Below, piece by piece: positions 7,095-63,732 of a stretch of DNA of 64,000 nucleotides (the first letter of the stretch is position 1; the number at the start of each line of letters is the position of its first letter). The stretch comes from Saxidomus purpurata (taxonomy: Eukaryota > Mollusca > Bivalvia > Venerida > Veneridae). Location: contig JAFMSR010000001.1 of assembly GCA_022818135.1 (NCBI GenBank), positions 8,261,069-8,325,068 of the forward strand, in the 5' to 3' direction. The position numbers and the translations under genes are program-made. The notes under the pieces were generated by a model that saw only the letters and a list, made by a program, of their open reading frames with translations, made no database searches and was not told the origin of the DNA.

Positions 7095-7843
7095 ACCTCT
7101 AAAATGCCACACATAATGAATGTCTTCACCCCCGTCGCGCTCAAAATAATTGTTTTTTGCACATCTGTCCGATATTTCATTTGGTATGTGGAACTATATG
7201 TACATATAAGCATAACCAGTTCCATGTGATATCAAAGTAAGAAATTTAACGTTTTTGACGTTTGATTTTGTAAAAACCATTGTTGTTGTATGAGTTTAAC
7301 CCTTTCCAGTCGTGTTTTGGGCAATTTTAACATTTTCAATGTTGTTACATATGTATCTATTGAAATTAAATAGAATTAAATCGTTTCCTAAAAAGATGAT
7401 GTTTTGAAAACGTTACTGTAAAGAAAACGTCTTAAGAACGTCGTTAAGGCGTGTACCTTGCAGGTCTTTGGAAAGTACTTTCAAGTTGTTTTTTTTGTAG
7501 TCCTCAACACGTTCAGAAAACTCCATCGAAATGTCGGTGATTTGTAACACTTTTGGGTGACGGCAACGTCTTCAGCACGTGTTAGAAGGAAACGTCTCGG
7601 CGTCGAATGGTTCGCTGGGAAATCATTTCCTAAAAGGGTTTCAACGTTGCATTTTGCACCATATATGCCATCTTTTTTTAAACCGTTCAGTAGGTTTGCG
7701 TTTAAAGAGAAAGTGTGTAATCTTTCGCTAAAACAGCACTTAATATGGTCTCAAACAACGTGGTCAGTTTACTGTTTGTCTAACTTGACCAGGTCTTGCG
7801 TACTTGACAGGCCTACAGCACTTTTAAAAGACTGTTTTAGTAC
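7095..7843. other. Intergenic spacer between two foldback elements
   Basis: No repeat, RNA or gene recognised. A 106-codon plus-strand frame (7557-7877) runs into the next foldback arm and shows no protein signature. Confidence 0.4.
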
Positions 7844-9235
7844 GGAACGCCAAATCTACATATACTCAAATATTTGAAGAGGTCTTTAAATAATTGGAGA
7901 GCTCTCTAATTCAATTATTGATATCAAAAATTGATTTAAAGCGCGCAATAAATGAATTGAAGACCTCTCCAATTCAATTGAAGATATCAAAAATTAAGGT
8001 GTATTTCAGCTGTTTTTAAGAGCTCTGTAATTGAATTGAAGAGGTCTCTAATTGATTTGAAGACCTCTGTAATTGTTTTATAGCGCGCTACAAATTAATT
8101 TATAGAGGTCTTTAATTCAATTAGAGACCTCTCTAAATCAATTTGAGCGCGGTGAAATTCAATTTTAGATGTCTTGAATGCGTACCAAATTTACATATAC
8201 TCAATTATTTGAAGAGGTCTTCAAATATTTGGAGAGCTCTGTAAAATATTTGGAGAGGTCTATATATCAATTTTTGATATCAAAAATTCGTTTGTAGCGC
8301 GGTTTAAATCCATTAATTTGGAGACATCTATAATTCAATTGAAGAGGTCTCCATTTAAATTGTAGACCTCTATAATTGTTTTATAGCGCGCAAGAAATGA
8401 ATTAATGATATCAAAAATTGATTTTGAGAGGTCTATAATTGAATTGTACCGCGCTTCAATTGTTTTATTTGAGAGCTCTCTATTTCAAGGCTGTACATGG
8501 ATTATATTGAAGCGCGGTACAAATGAATAAGAGACCTCTCTAAATCAATTTTTGATATCATTAATTCATTTCTTGCGTGCTGTAAAACAATTATAGAGGT
8601 CTCTAATTCAATTGGAGACCTCTTCAATTGAATTATAGATGTCTCTAAATCGATGGATTTAAACCGCGCTACAAGCAAATTTTTGATGTCTTTAATTAAT
8701 TTGTAGACCTCTCCAAATTTTTTTCAGAGCTCTCCAAATATTTAAAGACCTCTTTAAATACTTTAGTATATGTAGATTTGGCATGTATTAACATCGATTT
8801 CAAGATCTCTAAAATTGAATTTCACCGCGCTCAAATAGATTTAGAGAGGTCTCTAATTGAATTCAAGACCTCTATAAATTAATTTGTAGCGCGCTATAAA
8901 ACAATTACAGAGGTATTCAAATCAATTTGAGACCTCTTCAATTCAATTACAGAGCTCTTAAAAACAGCTGAAATACACCTTAATTTTTGATATCTTCAAT
9001 TGAATTGGAGAGGTCTTCAATTCATTTATTGCGCGCTTTAAATCAATTTTTGATATCAATAATCGAATTAGAGAGCTCTCCAATTATTTAAAGACCTCTC
9101 TATTACAATTTTTGCGCGCTATAATTATTTGGAGATATCTCTAATTGAAATTGAGACCTCTAATATTATTTGAAGAGCTCTCCAAATATTTAAAGACATC
9201 TTCAAATATTTGAGTATATGTAGATTTGGCGTTCC
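7844..9235. mobile_element. Large foldback element made of 21-bp-spaced hexamer words
   Basis: The ends are exact inverted copies: GGAACGCC at 7844 and GGCGTTCC ending at 9235, continuing as 'aaatctacatatactcaaa'. Inside, I located 58 hexamers of the form G....C or close variants: GAGGTC/GACCTC, GAGCTC, GATATC, GCGCGC, GCGCGG/CCGCGC and GACATC/GATGTC. They are separated by AT-rich ~15-bp spacers such as TCCAATTCAATTGAA. Of 54 neighbouring intervals within the four blocks, 40 are exactly 21 bp and 49 are 20-22 bp. Word order on the left is mirrored on the right around ~8485. No coding frame. Likely a non-autonomous foldback transposon; family not recognised. Confidence 0.85.
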
Positions 9236-9608
9236 ATATTTTAGAAGTACGTGGTCCAGAATTTGCATCTGAATTGAAACTGTTTAAACGATAAATAAAA
9301 CTACATGTATTTAAATGATTTATACAATTTCATAAGAAATACTTCAGGTATAACTGTACGTATACCACAACTATTACTTACGGTCTATATCATGCCTCGA
9401 TAATGTGTCATCAGATTTTACCGACGACGATATTTTTTTCATTCGATGTTATAGCTGTCAATATCAATAGACGTTTGTTTTTTCATTGATATTTGTGGAA
9501 TAAAGCGGCTAGATGAATTCTAACCCGGAAGTGAAGAAATGCAGACAACAAACTCAGTAAATGACATGTTTATGTATAAAATTTGATGTAAAACGCAATG
9601 GAATTGAC
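9236..9608. other. 5' flank of the PLEKHD1-like gene
   Basis: An AT-rich region holding the presumed promoter and 5' UTR. An in-frame ATG at 9561 lies 16 codons upstream of the ATG at 9609, and a TAA is in frame just before it. Confidence 0.4.
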
Positions 9609-17161: not shown

Positions 17162-17209
<48 letters not shown>

Positions 17210-20200
17210 CACACCCCCCCCCCGTAAATTTACTTCTTAACAGGATGTTTGGTGGGTTTTTTTGTGGGAGAAATCACTCTGGCCTAAGTAACTGCAATAG
17301 TTTCTCTAGTTTATTTTTCTGAAAACTGAAATAGAACATGAAGTTGGTGAAAAGTAAGAGCCCTGTTCTACCCCACTGGTACAGTTGAACCATCCAGTCA
17401 AATGCTTAAAACCTTAGCTTGTATTTAGTATAATCTTTGAACTTTAGTACTGCACATGAAATTGATATTAATATTTTGTTAAAAGAAACATAAGACATAG
17501 GAAAATTTAAAATTGAATTTCTTGGACAGACACATCATGCAATCATGTACTGCACAGTTGCATATCCTACAATAATGAAAAGCAGCAAAAGAAGGGATCC
17601 ATTTAATGATTTTGTGTACCGATAGTTACTGCATGTATTAAGATGTAGAATGTTGATACATGTATTTTGTTGAAGTACTGATTTTACACCTACATGTATA
17701 TTACAGGCAAATTTAACCCTGGCTGCCGAGAATGACTATGAGAGAGATAAATGGATCTCAGTTCTAGAGAAATCCAAAAGAATGTAAGAGATGCTTGTTT
17801 ACACATTTTTCCTTTGTTTTAACATGATTTCTTTTCATATTGATCAGTCTTTGAGCTAAAGAAAACTTGTAAATTTCAAATTCTGTTTTTGATTCAAATG
17901 CTACTCACCTCTCCTAGAAAAAAAATGCCCCATGTAAAGTCAGAAAAAGGACTGAAATTTTGTTGCCTGATTCTTAAAATCAGCAGAATGGCTACAATAC
18001 AGTTAACAACTCACAATACTTAGCATTTGATTGGTACTGTTACATGTTCTTATGTTTGTGCTCAATTGTATACAGTATTAAGTTGTTGTTGTAGAAGTTT
18101 CATGCATGTTCAGACAGTATTTTTAGTCATTTTAAGAGGTGGGCATTTAATCAAAACCATCATTCCTGGGAAGAACCAGTACTAGACTCCTATCCTCTGT
18201 AAGAAACTACCAACAAAGCCATGACCCGACAATCTATGAGAGGTTACAGTGATTTCAAGTCAGCGATTTTAACTGCTTGACCACAGAGGCGGATAGTTAT
18301 TGCTGTGTGTTGTTGAGTGATTAAGAAGCCAAACTGTAATCACTAACCCTCTGGCCTTGTGTCATAGGTTTGAGCCCTGCTACTGACCTGAATCCTCATG
18401 TCCGAAAGTTGGCAGTTTCTTACAAAGATTTGTAGTCTAGTACTTGATCTTCCCAGAAATAATCATTATGATAACTCAATCGCTTACCTGTACATAACTT
18501 GCATTAGAAAATTAAATGAAAAGGGTTGTTGTTTTATCAGAACCTGGGCCAATCAGGAGATGTCCGACAATCTTATCCGACAGCTTGAGGAACATGCTCA
18601 ATCCATGGCTAAGCAGAAACAGGACTACTTTGGTAAGTTTTGACATCATAGCAGCTTTTATCTGATTTAAATAAGTTTGACCCTCTGTAGTATTTTTGAG
18701 TCTTTATGTTTTTATTTTATGCTAAATATTAAAACAAAACCATAATTATTTATATATACTACTTAAAAAAAGTAGTCCCGGTAGACCTAATCACCGACAC
18801 TGTGACTGATATGAAATCTATAAGATCACTCTATATTTCACTGATATAACACAGTATTTCATTAGTTAGCATAAAATAAATTGTTCTAGCATGTACCCTT
18901 TTTGCTACATTTACAAATATTCAAACATCTGCATTTATATGCTAGGCTCATGCCATTTTAGGTCTGCTGTATGTTTAATATGAACCTTTTTGGTTTGAAA
19001 ATATAATGTTTGTATCAACCGAAAATTTAGTGTTACATGTTTATGCATGTAATTGAATAACATTATATTATAAGGGTTTTAGTAAATATGATTTCTTCTG
19101 TAGATCGGTTGCAATCGGAAGTTTTGGAACTGGCTGATGAGAAAGAGAAGACCTGGGTAAGTAATAGATCTGTTAGTCTAGATTCTCTGTTTCTTATGTA
19201 GAATAGATGTCTTGTACTGGTTCTTCCCAGGAACGATGGTTAGAAAATCTACTGTCTTATTAACAGTACATGTACATACTGTAAAAGTTTTTTCATCACG
19301 AGGTTTTCATTTTTCGGTAATTTTCGCGAAAGACACTTCGCATATTCATCAAACTCACTTAAATAACAAACAAACAATGATTATAAATACAACAGTGCTT
19401 GCTCATGATTTAAAAAAACTTTAATAAATAGAAAATTGGAAAATCACTAAATAAACAACTCATGGTTATAAATACTTTATTATTGTTTAAAATTGATACA
19501 TTTAGCTAGAGTTTCGGTTTAATATTTTCTGTTTCTTGCAGGAGCTGGAGAGACTGAATGAAGAACTAGAGAAAGAAAAGGGAAAGATGGAGAGCTTTGC
19601 TGAAGAAATGAAAACAGAGTATGCCAAAGTGAAAACGTAAGTTGATAGATGCTGCAAGATTGTTGAGTGTGTTGAATCACTGTTGATTAGGTATACATGT
19701 CATAGAAGGTATCGTATGTATGTTAATAAATTCATTCATGGTTATGAAATTCTTAACATCCTGTTATCACTTTAAAAATGGATGCGCAGAATAATAAATT
19801 TACAGATAAAACTTTGATCTACTATACTAAGTATTCTATTTATTCTGAAACAGTGTTGATATATATATTTCTATCATATTTTTGTTGCTTTTTCACAAAG
19901 AGCCTTGTCAGAAAGTGTTCCTTAATTTTTGCTATGTCATTGAGAAAATACTGCACTATATAGATAGTTTAAGTACTTTCGATTTCAAAAGCAATTTCAT
20001 ACAAGTAATGGCCTGTTGCTGGTAACATATCTTTCTCGGTAATGTAAAAACTACAAGTAATTTTACATCCATAGTGGATGATAGTGCTAATTGGACTTAA
20101 ATGTGTCAAATTAAAGACTTTAATACCTAATTACCAGCATACAGTTTTCAAACAGATATATTGTTCCTGTCAGGCATCGGTACATATATCTAAGTTGGCA

Positions 20201-23200
20201 GGTATAAATTCAAGAAGCAAAGCCAGTAAATTTGCATCTTGAAACACAAAAAGTCAAGAATTCCAGTGGTTGTGATTATATAAACTAGTAACAAGAAAAA
20301 TAGTCGTATAGAATACACATACACAGGTGAGAATAAAAAAAAACAGTTTAGTTTCATTAAGTGGATTTGATGCTTGACTGCAATGTCTCTGAATAACTTT
20401 GTTCAATGTTTTTACACTTTGTGTTTCAGAGAGCTAGAGGATATGCAGAGTTATATGAGAAGCCTGGATACTGAAAGGACCGAACTTTGGGAACAACTGA
20501 ACTCGCAGGAGAGTGATCTCAAGGTATTGGAAATACTGTAGTAAATTTGCAGTGCTGTAAAAACCATGGCCTGCTAGGGGTAGTTCTGAAATTATACAGG
20601 GGGTCTTTTTAAAAAGAATTGTTCATCACCTCCACCCCAAGCCTCCCCTCCCTGTGAAATAAAAGATTAAAAAAATGGCTGAAATATTTTTTTAACAATA
20701 CCATGTAATGAATTTTTACATTTATTGTTTACATTTGTTATATCTAAGGTAGAGAACTTTCAGAAGCTGTGTATTTAAGTGTATTTTAATTACCGTAAGT
20801 GCCTAATATTCTTTGTTTAAAAAAAGCATGTTTATCTACATTAATTATCAATGACTAAATCTAACGACTAGGTAAAAATACTTAATGTGCTGTTCACATG
20901 GAGCATTCCATATTTAAGGGGTTGAAGTTACATTATTTTTGCAAAAATAGAAGCAGAATTTTCAATGTAATTGGGAAAATATACTGGTTTTCCTAAATAT
21001 ACAAAATAATTTTCTTTGTGCTTTGATCATTGAAATTGTGCTTAGTTTTGAATAAGTGTAACTGATTAATTTTACACCCCCACAAGGTTTTGTAATTATT
21101 TTCCCATGGTCCATCTTTAATTATCATAAACCATACTTAAACCATCACTATATAGTTGCAACACATCAGTTAAATCCTTTGATAAATAACGTATAAGAAT
21201 CGATTACAAGCGGTGCCTGTGTTAATTCTGTTGATCATGTAGTGTGTAGGTGAAAGCTGTCTTGGTTTATTATCATGACACATTTATCTTTAGCCATTTT
21301 TGTCGAGCCCGCTTGCGGTGAGCTTGACATAGTTGTCACTTTTGGCGGTTCAGTGTATGTGCGTGCGTTCGTACGTGCGTCTGTCTGTCCATCAGATTTT
21401 GACCGGACCATATCTTTTTCATGCATGGAGGGATTTTGATGTTACTTGGCACAAATGTTCACCATCCTGGGACAGAACGTCATGCGCAAGAACCAGGTCC
21501 CTCGGTCTAAGGTCAAGGTCACACTTGGAGGTTAAAGGTCAAATTCAAGAATGACTTTGTCCGGAGCATATCTTTTTCATGCATGGAGGGATTTTAATTT
21601 AACTTGGCACAAATGTTCACCATCATGAGACGGAGTGTCATGCGCAAGAACCAGGTCCCTAGGTTTAAGGTCAAGGTTACACTTAGGGGTTAAAGTTCAA
21701 AGTCAAGAATATCTTTGTCTGGAGCATTTCTTCTTCATGCATGGAGGGATTTTGATGTTACTTTGTACAAATGTTCACCACCATGGGCTACCCTTGTTTT
21801 TAGAATAACTTCCCTTTGTTGTTACTATAAATAGCTTATATTGTAACTTTTTTATTGCTGGTCGTAGAAAAAAATCGAGACCACTTTTCTGTGGTACAAC
21901 ATGCATGTTACATCCAATATTTAGGTGTATTTTGACCCATCTCTACTTGGTAAGGAGTTAGCCCTTTTGACATATGACGGCTCGACATGTTGCACGTGGG
22001 CATCTAGTTTAGCAGTTTTATGACTTTTGAAAAAAAAACTGGAACAAAGTTTTAAGCAACTTTTGCCATTATGGGAACCGGTCTGACAAGTTGAAAATTG
22101 GTCCAGACCGGCAATTTTCCGGTTTTCCTGGGCCCTGGTTGTAGCATATTATTCTTTTCATTTTTGTAACATTTGCTTCATTCAATGTGATCAGTCATAA
22201 AGAGAAGTTTTTAACACGATTTTGTGAAAACAATGTACTTGAAAGATTGTGTGAAAAACAAAGTACTTGAAATACTTTATAAATAGAAATAACATAAATC
22301 TGATAGATCCTACAGATAAGTGCTTGAACTTGCTATACATGTATATTTTAGGTACATGTATATTCTTACGTATGTTTTAAATACTCTAACACTCTTAATA
22401 AGGGATTACTATAACATGTATATACTGGCAGATGCAGTGCTATGAAGTCTTATGATGCATACACATGTGTTGTTGAGACTTTACAACAGACAAAGAGTTA
22501 TCAAGTGCCATGTCAATATTTCATTTGCTGCAATGAAAGTTTGTGAGTACAAAATTAATGTACTTAAGTCTAGGGATATTCCAGATGTTGCAAGCTCAAA
22601 TCAAATTAGTGGAATTTGACCATGACTTGCACAATCCCTTCTTTTTTGCCCAGTTACAGGTAAGAAATCCTGAAAGCAGTCATCAAGAGTAGCTACTGGT
22701 AAGCTGAAGAAACTAGATTCTCGCATACCAGATCAGGATATCTGCAGTTTTTACCGGTGCCTGAAAATCTCATCTTGTACACACAAATAGACAGGTTTAG
22801 ACTAAATTGAAAAAAGAATGATTTAGACTACATTAAAAATACATTGTACTTTACAACCTTTAAGGCATTAGCAGCAGAAAAGGAGTCTATAATGGGGACC
22901 CTGCAGCGTCAGAAGTCTGTAACAGAACAGCTTAGTCAGGAAAAACAGCAGACTGAAGAAACAGTAAAGAAGAAACTGAAAGAGATTGAACAGCAAACAG
23001 AATCACTGCTACAGGAAAAAGCAGAGGCCGAAATGAGGTCAGACTTTGAATATCTGTTGTTGCACAAACAAAAAATGTTGATTTATAAATTTATTTTTAG
23101 GGTACGGTAGAAAGAAAGAGGGCAAAGAAATCACCTATAGTAATTGGTTGTGTTAGAATAAAACAGAAAAACTAGCATGTGAAACCAAAAATAGGCTTAT

Positions 23201-32200: not shown

Positions 32201-35200
32201 GAATATCTTTTACACAATTTAATTTCAAGGTATTTTAATTTTTGAGGATACAGAAAATTGACATGAATTTAATTTCAAATCAATTAATTAATTATTTAAT
32301 GATGAAATAATTAGAAAAATGCAGTTTCAGTGGAGAATGATTCTAGTTTGCTGCAGTTCAGCTTTTTATGTTGTCAGTTTTTCTGACATTGTGGAATGTT
32401 TGATTTTTGCTATTTTAATTGCTTTATGTGACATAAGAAATTAAATTCTAACCTTAGCCATGGAACCAGTGTTTGTGTAGATGGTAAGTAAACTCTGATA
32501 TTATGTAAATGTTGTTATATTACGAGACATTTCTTCACTATTAATGTGGGTTATAGAAAAAACATAGAATTTTACTAACAGTAGTAGCATTCTCTTGTAG
32601 TAAATGCTGTATTTTCTGTCATTGTTATACTTTGATTCATTTACATAAAAAGTTAAATATATCTCTTATTGTAGTGGCAAAAGTTCCCAGAAGTTTTTCA
32701 ATCTTCCCTGCTTAGAAAAAAAGACTTTCGAATGGGATGTTTTGTATGTGTGACATCATTTCCATCGTGTATATACCATATCTATGAGTTAGAACTGAAA
32801 AAACCTAAAATCACCCTTTTTTCAGACTCATACAAGCTTTGATGTCATATTCTTTCTGGTCATGACCCGAGCTGTGTTTAGACACACACTACGATACTGA
32901 AGGGTCTTTACTAATAACTCAAGACACCGCTAAAAATAGTTATAACTCAACACACCACTAAAAATACTTCCTCGAAAAAGGTACAGCATCAGCAAGAACT
33001 CTTACTTTTTTTTAGTCAGTCATGTTTCAGAATAGGCAATGATCAAATGCCAGTCTTACATTAGTGAAAACTAATAGAAATGTCTGGCTAAAATAACAAC
33101 ATTTACAGTGAAATTTAAGTATGGAATGTGGTGCAATGTGTATGTATCACAGTTTATGGTTGTGAGTTTTGGGGTTTACTCCTGCTTATTGGAGAAATAT
33201 CCCTTTTTTACGGGAGTGGAAGAATTAGCACAACCTAAAATTTCAGAATTTCTTTCTTTCTTTTTTTAATACCTTAATGCATCAATGTGCGGAGTAAGTC
33301 AGAAAATTAAACATTTCTATATTGAATTAAGCTAGATGAACCTTACAGCTATGTATTCATACACAAGGCACAAATAAAACAGTTTGCTTGTTACATGTAG
33401 TACATGATGTACAGGGCTGCCAAGTCTCCCAACTTGCACTTTTGTTGGTCTGGCACATTTTGCTTTTGCTTTCAAAGTTTGGAAGTTTTATCTGTTAGAA
33501 AATATCCAACAAGCCTTTCCACACTGTCACATGCTTTAACTGAATCCTGATGCTTAACTTAGTGTATATTTATTTATTTTATTAACAAAATAGTCCAGGA
33601 TGACTTCCACATATTTGTTGTTAAAGATAGCTTATTAATAATAATAAGCTATGAGGTTTAGCTCAGGAAAATATAAGCCAGCTGTTTTTGAAAAGATATG
33701 ATTTTAATTAATAAAACTTCATCAAGAATTCTCTTTTCTTCCAACATTACAAAATATTAATGATATCATATTATCTTTTGCATGCATTTTGGTTTTATGA
33801 ACTTTTATCAGACTTGGTGGCCCTGGAATATTTTAGTTTTGGTCAATCTGTGGTTAAGTATCAAAGTGGAAGATGATTTATGCAAGAAATAGAGAAATAT
33901 CATTAAGAATTACTTTCAAACAATGGGCTGCATGTCACAATGCTCTGAAAATTCAGAAGCAGGCTTAGATGTCCACTTTGTTTGGTTAGTGTCTGTAATG
34001 GCTGAAAAAGTACAATGCATCTTGGGTAAAGTTGAATTTATTTTTTATTGTAAAATTATTTTAGTTTTAGATATGCATGCAATACTGTGTATTTTCAGTT
34101 CATTTTGGGTTCTTTTGTTGTTGTTGTTTTTGGATTTTCAGAAATGTTTTTGATATTATATAGCCTACTTATTTTGAATAATGTAGAATTATTGTTTGAA
34201 ACTAATTTTGTTTATGAGTTATAGAATACTTTAAGCAACTAAGTAATTTCTTGACTTTTTATGCCCCCGAAGGGTGGCATATTAAAATCGCACCGTCTGT
34301 CCGTCTGTCCGTCTGTCCGTCCGTCCGTCTGTCCGTCCGTCCGTGCGTCCCCACTTACAAATTCGTGTCCGGACTGTAACTTTGTCATGCATTGAAGGAT
34401 TTTAAAATAACTTGGCACACATGTCTAGCACATCAAGACGACGTGTCGCGTGCGAGACCCGCATCCCTACCTCAAAGGTGAAGGTCACACTTGGAGTATG
34501 AAGGTAATGGAATCCTCTATATATGCACACATTCGTGTCCGGACTGTATCTTTGTCATGCATTGAAGGATTTTAAAATAACTAGGCACACATGTCTAGCA
34601 CATCAAGACGACGTGTCGCGTGCAAGACCCACGTCCCTAGCTCAAAGGTCAAGGTCATACTTAGAGTTTGAAGGTAATGGATTCCTCCATATAAGCATAT
34701 ATGCACACATTCGTGTCCGGACTGTAACTTTGTCATGCATTGAAGGATTTTAAAATAACTAGGCACAAATGTCTAGCACATCAAGACGACGTGTCGCATG
34801 CAAGACCCACGTCCCTAGCTCAAAGGTCAAGGTCATACTTAGAGTTTGAAGGTAATGGATTCCTCTATATAAGCATATATGCACACATTCGTGTCCGGAC
34901 TGTAACTTTGTCATGCCTTGAAGGATTTTAAAATAATTTGGCACAAATGTCTAGCACATCAAGACGACGTGTCGCGTGCATGACCCACATCCCTACCACA
35001 AAGGTCAAGGTCACACTTAGAGTTTATAGGTAATGGAATCCTGTATATATGCATACATTTGTGTCCGGACTATAACTTTATTATGCTTTGAAGGATTTTA
35101 AAATAACTGTGCACAAATGTCTAGCACATCAAGTGGATGTGTCGCGTGCAAGACCCAAGTCCCTGTCCCACCTCAAAGGCCAAGGTCACACTTAGTGTTT

Positions 35201-38200
35201 AAAGTAATGGAATACTGTATGCATGATTACTCTGTCATGCATGGAAGGATTTTAAAATTACATAGCACATTTATTGAGCACATGGAGAGGACACAGACTG
35301 TGAGGCACCTCTTTCGGGGGCATTCGTCACTTGGGAGGGACAGCTCTTGTTGTACTTGGTATACAATAGTGGTTGCATTTTTCATTAGATTTTCATGAAA
35401 CTTGGTCAGTATGATTGACTTGATGAAATTTAGATCGAGTTCGAACATCGGTTATCTAGGGTCAGAAACTAGGTCACCCTGTAAAATCATAGAAAACCTT
35501 GAATATGCAATAGAGGTTGCATTTTTCATTGGACCTTCATGAAACTTGGTCAGTATGATTGCCTTGATAAAATCTATGTTGAAATAGCACATGGGTCATC
35601 TAAGGTAAAAGACTAGGTCACTCAGTCAAATCATATGAAAACCTTGTGTATGCAATAGAGGTTGCATTTTTCATTGGACCCTAATGAAACTTGGTCAGTA
35701 TGATTGCCTTGATAAAATCTAGGTCGAGTTTGAACATGGGTCATTTAGGGTTAAACACTATGTCACGGAGGAAAGTTGTAGAGAAACCATGTGTATGCAG
35801 TAGAGGTTGCATTTTTCATTCAATCTTCATGAAACTTGGTCAGTATGATTGTCTTGATGAATTTTAAGTTGAGTATGAAAATGGGTAATCTGAGGCCAAA
35901 AACTTTGTCACCCGGTCAAAAACCTTGTGTATGCCATACAGGTGACATTTACAACCCAATAATTATGTAATTTGGTCAAAAGGTTTGCCTTGTCAATGTC
36001 AAACAGAATGTTTGTGTTTATGATATTATGTTTAGAGTTGAAGTTTGGTCACATATTGTCGTAAGTCCCAGGTGAGAGATATAGTGCCATCTTGGCCCTC
36101 TTGTTATAAAGTTAACATTTATTATGTCACATGGCCTGTAGTTAAACATGTTTTACTTAATTTTCAGTAAATTGAAAGGCATTCTCTACCATTTCCATTA
36201 TGTGCATTTGTAACTAAATGTACCTGTAAATTCTATGTGGAGAATTTCTTCAAACTTGGTACATTGACTGAGAATCAAATCTGAAAAAGAGATTATGAAA
36301 TAAAAATTACAGGTCACCAACCTTGATCTTGAATTGTCTGAATTGATTTTGAATCAAGATTAGGGCTGACTATTGCAGCCAAATTTACTATCACGATAGT
36401 TATCGATAGTTAAAAGTACTATCACGATATACTATCAATAGTTGGCTTATCACGATAGTTTCGATAGTTTACATTATTGCATACTATATATTTTTACCAA
36501 GTTGATTCAATTTGTTTGTATCAATATCTGTAATTAACTTGAATTCAGTATAAATATAATCGTGCCTAATTAAGAATGCTAAACCATCTTTATTGAACAG
36601 ATGTGCGTCATTAAAATTTTTCACTATGCGAAGTCATGGATTGATGGATGGTAAGACGACAACTACGTTTTAGGAACAGAAACGTCGTCTTATATATAAC
36701 TTATTATAGCCCGTAATGTAAACATACGTTTTATGGCAAAGGAAAATCAACTACATTTTATGTAAATAACGCATTCAAAAATGAAAAAAAAGTATGGAGA
36801 AAAGTCGATAGCTGTTCAGACTATCGGCGATAGTATCGATAGTGTGAAATTGCTATCGACTATTGACTATTGGGTCTGATACAATCGCGATAAGTCGATA
36901 GTATCGACTATCGTTACACCCCTAATCAAGATACATATAGAAAAAGTAGTTGCTATGTATTTCAATGTTATTTTTCAAGGGCAAATAATTCAAGATCAAT
37001 GCCAGTGACCTATGCATTTTTATTTCGTGTTTCTTTTTCAGATTTGATTCTGAATCAGATTACACCAAGTTTGAAGAAAATCACAAGTTTCGAAAAATTT
37101 GGCCCGTTACTACATCAAGGAAATGGTATCAAATGCCTTTAACAGATGGATATCATTTATGTATATTTTCATATTTTGCCCATAATTATACTAAAAACTT
37201 CTCTATAACTTTTGTCTCCTCCAAAATTGAAGAGCATAAAATATACAAAATGTGCTCTAATCTCACTGTCAAATTATATTTAGCAATGAATACAGGTAAA
37301 TATTATTTTAATTTACCAGCTTAGCAGCTTGGAGTGTGGTGAGTTTGTAGAAGCATTACTATTTCAATACAAGTTATAATGCTGATGTTGTTATTAAATG
37401 GCCACAGTTAATGAAATACTAAAATCACCAACAAGGTCAGGGCTGTGAACTATGGGAATTCTAGGTTATTTGACCTGGGTGTTTTAATTTTTTATAGATA
37501 ATTGCAGTTCCATACATCACTGCTTTACATAATAAGGTGCCATATTGATAAGATCACATGATGTAGTTACAATTGACATCACAGCTTTTCTTTAAATGAC
37601 AGTTTCAGCAGACATTTCAGGATATCCAATGAACGAAATAGATCAAAACATTTTGACAGCAATGTGTGGTACATAGCCAGAAGTTTACATTTTTTTCCAA
37701 AGATTGAAGAAAAACTTACTTTTTATGCTATTTAAGATGCTTTTTAGCTCATTGTCCCCTTTTAGCCTCATCACTACCGTATTACTATGCTCAGGGTGGC
37801 TCTTGTGTAGCCTCTATTCTATTCCAAGAATACCATCCCATCTACAAGTCCACCACTGTCTTCACTATAATTTTGAAAGTTGAACCCATTCACTAGATTT
37901 CAAAATTGTTTCACAGAATTTGACAGTCTACTATAGTCATGTAGTAGCAAACTTCAAGTAAAATTGATTTGTCAAATGACATGGCGATGGCTAGGCAACT
38001 CTTTTCTTTATTTCTTTAAAATTCTTAATGTCCTGGAACCATTAGTTGGTTTAATTCTTTAAAAAGTTTCACAGGAATGGTTCCTATTTGACCCTCTTTG
38101 TTGGAGAAATTTTGATTGGTCAAATAATTTGACTGCCATTATAGAACATGGCTCTGTCTTTTTCCTTAAAACTTCTTGCCACAAACCACTGGTCAGAATT

Positions 38201-46979: not shown

Positions 46980-47990
46980 CTTGTTCTGTTTTGACCGAAC
47001 ATTTCTTCGTGCCCAAGCTGTAACTTTGCCATGCATCCAAGGATTTCAAAATAACCTGACACAAAATGATCAGCACATCAAGACAACGTGTCGCGTGCAA
47101 GACCCATGGCCCTACCTCAAAGGTCAAGGCTACACTTAGTGTTTAAAAGTAATGGAATCCTGAATATATGCACACATTCGCGTCCGGACTGTGACTTTGT
47201 CATACATTGAAGGAAAGTTTAAAATAACTTGGCACAGATGTTCAGCACACCAACAAAACGTGTCGCGTGCAAGACCCAAGTCCCTACCTTAAGGTCACAC
47301 TTAGATTTTAAAGGTAATGGAATCCTGTATATATACATTCATTCGTGTCCGGACTGTAACTCTGTAATGCATTGATGGATTTTAAAATAACTTGGCATAT
47401 ATGTTCAGCACATCAAGACGACGTGTATCGTGCCACACCCACGTCCCTACTCAGAGTTTAAATGTAATGGAATCCTGTTTATGCACACATTTCGTGTCCG
47501 AGCTGTAACTTTGTCCCGCATTAAATTAACTTGACACAAATGTTCAGCACATCAAGTCGACGTATCGCGTACAACACCCACGAGCTAACCTCAAAATTCA
47601 AGGTCACACTTTAAAGGTAACCGAATCCTGTATTCACAGTAACTCTGTCATGCATGGAAAGGTTTTTAAATTACATGCAAAATTGCTAAGCACATGTAGA
47701 TGACATGTCACGCGCAAGTCCCGCGTTCTTACCGTGGAGGTTAAGGTCACACTAGGAGGTCAGATAGTTTCGAATCCTGTTTATGTAGACCCACACAAGT
47801 TCATGTCCGATTGTAATACTGTTATACATTGAAATATTTTTAAATGAATTTGAACAAATGTTTAGCACATGAAGATAAAGTGTCATGCGCAAGTACCGGT
47901 TCTACATCTTCTGGGTCAATGGCACAGACTGTGAGACACCTCTTTTGGGGGCATTCGTCATTCACGAGGGAGAGCTTTTGTCTATATCTA
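46980..47990 (+). mobile_element. Array-type repetitive element, relative of 34261-36110
   Basis: About five diverged units of ~165 bp with 'gtgtccggactgtaactctg', 'agcacatcaagacgacgtgt' and 'aaggtcacactta'. It ends with 'cctcttttgggggcattcgt', which is also found at 35307 in the other copy. It lacks the 5' microsatellite start. Confidence 0.65.
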
Positions 47991-49385: not shown

Positions 49386-50128
49386 ATGGTGTGATATAAA
49401 GGTAATGCCTTAAAATTACAATGAATAGAATCTAGTATGAAACAAAGGCAATGCCTTAAAATCACAATGAATAGTATGAAACAAAGGCAATGCCTTAAAA
49501 TCACAATGAATAGTATGACACAAAGGCAATGCCTTCAAATCACAATGAATAGTATGAAACAAAGGCATGCCTTAAAATCACAATGAATAGTATGAAACAA
49601 AGGCAATGCCTTCAAATCACAATGAATATCATGAAACAAAGGCAATGCCTTAAAATCACAATGAATAGTATGAAACAAAGGCAATGCCTTAAAATCACAA
49701 TGAATAGTATGAAACAAAGGCAATGCCTTAAAATCACAATGAATAGTATGAAACAAAAGCAATGCCTTAGAATCACAATGAATAGTATGAAACAAAGGCA
49801 TGCCTTAAAATTACAATGAATAAAATCTAGTATGAAACAAAGGCAATGCCTTAAAATCACAATGAATAGTATGAAACATAAGCAATGCCTTAAAATCACA
49901 ATGAATAGTATGAAACAAAGGCAATGCCTTAAAATCACAATGAATAGTATGAAACAAAAGCAATGCCTTAGAATCACAATGAATGGTATGAAACAAAAAC
50001 AATGCCTTAAAATCACAATGTATGGAATGAAATGCCTTAAAATCACAAGGAATGGTATGAAACAAAGCCAGTGCCTAAAAATCAAAAGGAATGGTATGAA
50101 ACAAAAGCAATACCCTAAAATCACAATG
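49386..50128. repeat. 39-bp minisatellite (~19 units)
   Basis: The unit is AAAGGCAATGCCTTAAAATC followed by ACAATGAATAGTATGAAAC, 39 bp. For example, GGCAATGCC lies at 49447 and 49486. GGCAATGCC is a near-palindrome. Because 39 is 13 codons, both strands stay open through long stretches; these frames are repeat by-products. A few units have deletions that shift the phase. Confidence 0.9.
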
Positions 50129-50369
50129 ACTGGTATGACAATGACAATGATTTTATTTGATACTGGCGACCGGCCCATGACAATTATATACATTTTACAT
50201 ATTCAATGTTAACATATAAACTATTATATATATACCATATAATGTGTATACGTATACAAATTCCAGTTCTCAGTTGTGATTTCTCTTCCTGTCCAGTAGT
50301 TAGCCTTTACGAAACGAAACTAAAGGACAGTCTTTTGAAAGCCGGATTATTTTAGCAAAAAGTTAAATC

Positions 50370-62926: not shown

Positions 62927-63732
62927 ACGAAGAAAGAGTCTTATTCCATATAACACAGATTGCTGCAGTCTAGGTGAAGTTTTGAGCCCAATTCAACACA
63001 TATGTCACTCTAACAGTTCCAGTTAGTGAAGATGCAACCAATGTGACTGACATAGCCATGCTTGGAGAAGAAATGAGAGTGAATGGAAAAGTTGTGGAAT
63101 CAGTTCCAATCACATCAGCTTTTAATAAAATGATTAGCTGGCTTTGAAAGTTCACAAGACTATGTTTCGCTGCGCATAATAGACGGCGCTTTGATTGACA
63201 GATTTTAGTTTCAACTCTATAGAACATTGGTGCTCTGTATAAATTTTTAAAATGTGCTTTTATTGATTCACTGTCTGTTTTAAGAAAGTTATATGCCAGG
63301 CAGTCTTTGAAACAAGTAGATCTTGTGTCATCTTTGCTTTGTGAAACCTATGATGCACATAATGTAATGGCTTGAGGAAAATTGCTTCAGTTTGTGAATC
63401 TCCCAACAAGAGATATGAAGGCACACAGTTTCACTCCATTTGCAGTAGCAAATAACTTGGAATTCAACAATACCAAAACATTAAACTTGCCAACCTTTAC
63501 ATCCACTTATCTTCACTGGTGTGTTAAAAAGCCTACAGCTGAAAATATTGTTGGGCATGGACTAAGTCTAATGCATTTTAGAATGTTACACACCCGTGGT
63601 GGTGAAGATACAATACGAGATGTTTTCACTGCTAAGAATTCAGAAGGTTTACCCAGAGTATCAAATGCAAAGAAAAAGCTGGAAGAAATTATTCCCAAAA
63701 ACTCTCAATATTTTGGGAAAAAAAGTAATTAG
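62927..63732 (+). pseudogene. DEDDh 3'-5' exonuclease-like pseudogene (PML/transposon-associated type)
   Basis: After 'gttatttgcag' one frame runs ~800 bp: HITQIAAV, then VNGKVVESVPITSAFNKMIS, FAAHNRRRFD, FIDSLSVLRKLYARQ, VDLVSSLLCETYDAHNVMA and, in the intact 116-codon 3' part, GHGLSLMHFRMLHTRGGEDT..RVSNAKKKLEEI. These blocks follow the DnaQ-like exonuclease domain found C-terminal in fish PML-like and many invertebrate multi-copy proteins. Six in-frame stops interrupt it (TAG, TGA, TGA, TGA, TAG, TGA). The expected DLETTG block is not seen and the last catalytic Asp after AHN is gone. Non-functional; no frameshift. Confidence 0.65.

Follow-up and report, generated by a model that had tools for sequence, protein, structure and literature searches.

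The window analysed here is a stretch of 64,000 nucleotides from the bivalve Saxidomus purpurata (assembly GCA_022818135.1, contig JAFMSR010000001.1, positions 8,261,069 to 8,325,068). It carries an element of 1398 bp (window 7841-9238) with TTTTAG directly on either flank. This element is almost certainly a DNA transposon. We favour, with some reserve, the reading that it is a non-autonomous foldback transposon, most likely of the IS3EU superfamily, whose arms are an array of degenerate dyad sites repeated every 21 bp. A first-pass annotation, made from the sequence alone, had described at 7844..9235 a foldback element written in hexamer words at a 21-bp pitch. The element is borne out with slightly wider bounds, and its foldback nature is shown by the long inverted arms, the dispersed copies and the 6-bp target duplications. 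That annotation had proposed an autocorrelation against shuffled sequence and a comparison of the genome with itself for other copies. Both were run; the pitch lies far above the shuffles and many dispersed copies were found.

A dyad motif repeated every 21 bp

All 58 annotated words were recovered at their positions, and the annotated counts of 40 intervals of 21 bp and 49 of 20-22 bp were reproduced exactly. The 57 successive intervals comprise 40 of 21 bp, 7 of 20 bp and 2 of 22 bp, the remaining 8 being longer (37 bp twice, 26 bp twice, 24, 39, 46 and 57 bp). The left outer arm includes 14 words, the inner arms 13 and 12 and the right outer arm 19. Some variant words read differently in the consensus of the copies (8804, GATCTC to GATATC; 8910, GAGGTA to GAGGTC), while GACATC at 9195 is GACCTC in 26 of 30 copies. 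Under a mechanical definition (hexamers GA..TC or GC..GC, the middle two bases free), 7844-9235 contains 53 words and 30 pairs at lag 21, while the highest count was 2 in 1000 dinucleotide shuffles and likewise 2 across 86 further window segments. Bases 21 positions apart are identical at a rate of 0.470; 500 shuffles averaged 0.287 (sd 0.011). Owing to the inverted repeats, no more than about half of the words count as independent; taken by itself, the left outer arm still has 8 pairs at lag 21, where shuffles reach at most 2.

The words are the cores of a 20-bp dyad motif, AWTTnnAGMNNKCTnnAAWT, followed by one spacer base, mostly G or C. In a profile of 32 units centred on the word, with one strand taken per arm pair, several offsets are near-invariant (-4, T in 32/32; -5, T in 31; +5, C in 31; +9, A in 31) while offsets -3, -2, 7 and 8 are near random (1.65-1.87 bit). 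At 12 of its 14 informative letters, the motif is found 57 times in the consensus; in 200 shuffles, which guard against composition only since the motif was defined on these units, the count averages 0.67 and peaks at 4. The rest of the window (62.6 kb) has 6 occurrences. Word type is partly tied to the flank: T precedes 6 of the 9 GATATC words and A precedes the AG-type words.

Within blocks, the dyad centres keep a constant phase (mean vector 0.93 at 10.5 bp and 0.98 at 21 bp). The eight inter-block gaps measure 3.52, 4.38, 2.48, 2.29, 3.71, 2.48, 5.43 and 3.52 turns of 10.5 bp. As these are mostly near half-integer values, neighbouring blocks often lie about half a turn apart. The first-pass proposal that all words face one side of the helix is thus correct within blocks and fails across them. 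Intrinsic A-tract curvature was considered and rejected, since AA/TT power is 19.3 at 21 bp but 0.3 at 10.5 bp. On our own reading, bends would cancel because each spacer carries two AATT tracts about 5 bp apart.

Copies, age and structure of the element

The source genome of the window (1.135 Gb) was searched with two parts of the element, and the best matches were examined. With the 340-bp left arm, 738 candidates came up at first look; 40 were scored, all at ~99-100% (the 381 left-arm matches count several per copy). The 65-bp tip gave 1307, of which 40 were scored at 98-100%. We read 40 arm sites, the window among them, and 27 further tip sites. Merging sites with identical flanks left 53 distinct insertions in which both ends were recognised; a further 18 loci lacked a second end by the pattern used, several of them being second views of one site. 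A 6-bp target duplication is exact in 46 of the 53 insertions, matches at five of six positions in 6 and is lacking in one (L041). Among the first 33 insertions, 29 have an exact 6-bp duplication, and no exact duplication of 4, 5, 7, 8 or 9 bp was seen. Target sites lean weakly towards S-A-W-W-T-S. Five places (L012, L026, L039, L042, L069) share an identical 25-bp left flank, which indicates a single insertion later multiplied along with its surroundings.

The mobility of the element is shown by these many near-identical copies and their 6-bp target duplications. Length is homogeneous (1340-1420 bp in 44 of 53 insertions), and the median divergence from the consensus is 0.79% in 40 copies of this length, a value which, the best-scoring copies having been sampled, dates the young part of the family rather than the whole. 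The element is a young, recently active cut-and-paste transposon family with many copies. The consensus holds 28-41 stops in each of the six frames and its longest open stretch is 73 codons. With no transposase gene, many copies and a homogeneous length, it is a non-autonomous foldback element resembling miniature inverted-repeat transposable elements (MITEs), although it exceeds the usual MITE in size.

Folding of the consensus gives 640 pairs in 1398 nt, so that long inverted repeats with internal sub-repeats fill the element; as RNA it folds into a single long hairpin (-938 kcal/mol). The outer arms (7878-8178 and 8799-9099) are 98% complementary and the inner arms (8177-8460 and 8506-8789) 88%; the tips carry the sequence TAYGGAACGCCAAATCTACATATACTC. 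The inner part, bounded by tip-like stretches (Table 1), is possibly a nested insertion; no 6-bp duplication was seen around the inner tips, which are devoid of the last bases of the outer tip.

Table 1. Parts of the element and its flanks, in window positions
Feature	Position	Strand	Remarks
Left target-site duplication	7835..7840	+	TTTTAG
Whole element	7841..9238	.	1398 bp; ends TACGG (consensus TATGG) and CCATA
Left tip	7841..7905	+	95% complementary to 9174-9238
Word block 1	7879..7988	+	6 units
Word block 2	8020..8173	+	8 units; blocks 1 and 2 form the left outer arm (14 units)
Inner tip-like stretch, left half	8179..8213	+	Like the element tip minus its last bases
Left inner arm	8214..8478	+	13 units (blocks of 5, 7 and 1)
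Loop	8479..8511	.	Longer homologous loops at the same place in L053 and L064
Right inner arm	8512..8752	-	12 units (blocks of 7 and 5)
Inner tip-like stretch, right half	8756..8790	-	
Right outer arm	8804..9200	-	19 units (blocks of 8 and 11); 5 more than the left outer arm
Right tip	9174..9238	-	
Right target-site duplication	9239..9244	+	TTTTAG

Probable assignment to IS3EU

The ends and the duplication length fit the IS3EU superfamily (IS3EU/GingerRoot), suggesting an IS3EU derivative. Complete IS3EU families invariably end in TA..TA, and their target duplications are usually of 6 bp (PMC10045372); the ends of fungal members are given as TAYGG..CCRTA (PMC12730594). Our element shares the TA..TA termini (consensus TATGG..CCATA; TACGG..CCATA in the window copy) and the 6-bp duplication, exact in 46 of 53 insertions. 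It differs from the complete families in that no transposase was found in it or linked to it, and from the IS3EU descriptions, as far as their available parts go, in its arms built from a 21-bp dyad array. A literature search joining IS3EU and foldback listed a single paper, which mentions foldback once, among its references. Judged on its ends and duplications, the element probably belongs to this superfamily. hAT duplications are usually 8 bp, yet 6-bp hAT6 elements exist (PMC12730594). The 7-8 bp duplications of Galileo and the P superfamily were not observed among the first 33 insertions, the exact duplications here being of 6 bp.

The profile PF24764, which we take to be the IS3EU-like integrase core, gave at least 151 matches in the source genome (150 of 360 candidates scored), many with open frames, and none in 14 control genomes. 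Twenty of the listed matches span the same part of the profile (positions 90-176), and a single TGA and a single TAA interrupt each of them. These twenty form an amplified, broken integrase fragment family, for example C9:41836946-41837206 (L090).

Relatives and truncated copies

Two relatives are longer than the common form. One (L053, 2553 bp, duplication GTTGTC) carries a loop of ~1.16 kb in place of the short loop, and the other (L064) a homologous loop of ~0.95 kb at the same place. The 1398-bp form therefore looks like an internal deletion derivative of a longer form, to judge from these sequences. No transposase-sized frame was seen in either loop. The five-unit excess of the right outer arm over the left implies that units are gained or lost whole. 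In three loci, the match to the element breaks off: at position 509 (L052) and 502 (L066), followed by unlike DNA, and at 89 (L063), where the adjoining frames resemble reverse transcriptase on our own reading. Sulfotransferase-like exons, again on our own reading, lie beyond the breakpoint of L052.

Apparent constraint on the array and its possible function

The juxtaposition of fixed and near-random positions within the unit speaks for past selection on the DNA sequence. Likewise, the consensus inner arms disagree at 7 of 151 fixed sites, whereas free and spacer-centre sites do so at 26 of 115 (Fisher p 1.8e-5). Of the 7 fixed-site differences, 4 are found in the last unit, next to the loop. 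Together, the unit profile and the inner-arm contrast point to constraint on the DNA sequence while the array diversified. Variants among the 40 copies of 1340-1420 bp were also compared with expectation at fixed sites. Singletons fall there in 146 of 242 cases for 159.2 expected (p 0.027) and shared variants, opposite-arm bases included, in 21 of 43 for 27.7 expected (p 0.015). In 8 of the 43 shared variants the base is that of the opposite arm, hinting at exchange between the arms. Sharing is rarer in the outer arms (15 shared variants and 141 singletons) than in the inner ones (46 and 151).

The array may be read by the transposase or its partner, a proposal for which we consider the chances evenly balanced. 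The transposase would be made elsewhere in the genome and it, or a partner protein, would be supplied in trans. Each unit would be a putative site for a symmetric dimer, and dimers would load side by side along the arms at two-turn spacing. Such loading would concentrate transposase on non-coding copies and so favour their spread. A stronger version, in which the array is a polymer-binding platform for the cooperative loading of an IS3EU-type transposase or partner, with dozens of sites and half-turn breaks between blocks, seems quite improbable to us. We know of no DNA transposon with cooperative transposase loading on a two-turn array. The dense array of putative protein sites suggested by the first-pass annotation is the best reading of the dyad-symmetric, position-specific conservation at a two-turn pitch.

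Several points weigh against the favoured reading of the element. The motif was derived from the same units that it describes. The inner-arm contrast may be partly due to the exchange of whole units. Words change after insertion at the same pace as the remainder (74/10388 and 235/31389). Shared variants show no constraint among the present copies once opposite-arm bases are left out, 20 of 35 falling on fixed sites for 22.1 expected (p 0.26). Exact duplications also flank short forms of 476 and 538 bp, which suggests that the full array may be dispensable for moving, unless these forms shrank after insertion. No autonomous copy or transposase with these ends was linked to the element among the loci read. 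In particular, the five PF24764 loci read (L087-L091, two with masked stretches) show no tips, no array and no TAYGG..CCRTA pair with a duplication.

The array could be a passive tandem repeat, a 21-bp minisatellite grown by unequal exchange or hairpin copying, whose pitch is a mere repeat length. The difference of whole units between the outer arms (19 and 14 words), the opposite-arm base in 8 of 43 shared variants and the lack of proven constraint among copies speak for such an origin. Neutral decay, however, is expected to be uniform, whereas the unit is dyad-symmetric with near-invariant positions beside near-random ones, and we hold this explanation to be unlikely. We doubt to a similar degree that the reader is an unrelated protein of the host, DNA-binding or chromatin-associated, which the element uses for silencing escape, insulation or targeting. 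Host sites would yield the same dyad conservation and would account for an array without a linked transposase, but these sites are located in the arms of the element and the words show no preservation after insertion.

That the element serves to produce double-stranded RNA, its 21-bp pitch mirroring the length of small RNAs, appears highly improbable. The single long RNA hairpin is what such a role would predict; yet a perfect duplex requires neither a dyad motif nor fixed words, and an Rfam scan of the window gave no match at gathering scores. A decayed coding sequence for protein heptads (7 codons in 21 bp) was considered as one frame reads the word codon pairs as Asp/Glu followed by Val/Leu/Ile, on our own reading. 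This candidate was rejected on the stops in every consensus frame and its probability is negligible; besides, the variable bases, again as we read them, include codon positions 1 and 2 while position 3 is kept. The structural DNA or RNA code also put forward in the first-pass annotation finds no support, with no 10.5-bp AA/TT phasing and 28-41 stops per frame.

Comparison with other transposons

The first-pass annotation knew no named element of this design. The ends and duplication now fit IS3EU and sub-repeats in the arms have precedents, but the literature searched yielded no account of transposon arms built as a 21-bp dyad array. The foldback elements TU of sea urchin and FB of Drosophila also have arms with short tandem sub-repeats; their unit lengths, duplications and ends differ from those observed here. 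Galileo belongs to the P superfamily and makes duplications of 7-8 bp, not 6 bp. Like our element, Tetris and Galileo, both Drosophila foldback elements, have long inverted arms with internal tandem repeats; in the parts of the sources available, the repeats of Tetris are ~220 bp rather than 21 bp and those of Galileo also differ in spacing. The Galileo arm repeats hold additional transposase binding sites, according to the accessible text (PMC4079207). The Hermes transposase (hAT) contacts subterminal repeats in its ends, two of which form a quasi-palindrome (PMC10368747, available in part). Hermes thus resembles our element in having several short sites inside its ends, although, in the same partial text, their spacing differs and they are far fewer. 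This precedent for internal sites is limited, since a section heading of that source calls auxiliary transposase binding inside the ends unlikely (PMC10368747), a further point against a transposase-read array.

Similar arrays in prokaryote contigs

Prokaryote contigs were scanned with a 40-letter two-unit pattern, without a shuffled-pattern control. Matches were obtained in three contigs from two Treponema assemblies (metagenome-assembled genomes) and in one Campylobacter contig. In Treponema, L048:1013-1210 contains 10 AGACCTCT units exactly 21 bp apart, and L049:3729-3862 and L050:468-601 contain 7 units each, one of them degenerate in each case. Pitch, dyad and spacer design are as in the clam element. 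Since the pattern selected these hits, agreement at its own letters is no proof of anything; at the spacer centre, a position free in the pattern, 10/10 units of L048 and 6/7 of L049 have G or C. The flanks of L049 and L050 are alike on both sides, so that the two appear to be copies of a single dispersed repeat. The Treponema likeness is a lead to convergence and no evidence of relationship. Nearby, L050 1-440 (minus strand) resembles a putative IS3-type OrfA. In Campylobacter (L051:5085-5200), what matches the two-unit pattern is a simple tandem repeat of 21 bp built on TTCTAGAATTC. A 29-letter two-unit pattern gave no matches in viral contigs.

Other features of the window

Three tandem arrays (21398-21785, 34357-35213 and 47018-47450) have periods of 158-178 bp, and their consensus units resemble one another. 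A 39-bp tandem array of 18 copies (49433-50138) is partly overlapped by open frames on both strands. A mostly-C run of 60 nt (17164-17223) adjoins an A/T-rich repeat, and a frame at 63376-63732 carries a PML C-terminal domain (PML_C, E 3.9e-10).

Significance

If the platform model were true, the similar Treponema arrays would represent a recurring architecture, whether it arose convergently or the binding proteins share an ancestor. Should the units be transposase sites, the element would be an extreme example of non-coding DNA that spreads through multiplied binding sites, and the 58 natural variants of the site would allow a direct reading of the recognition code using a single protein and a single short DNA. 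IS3EU is little covered in the literature searched, and a family as young and abundant as this one would make a useful model.
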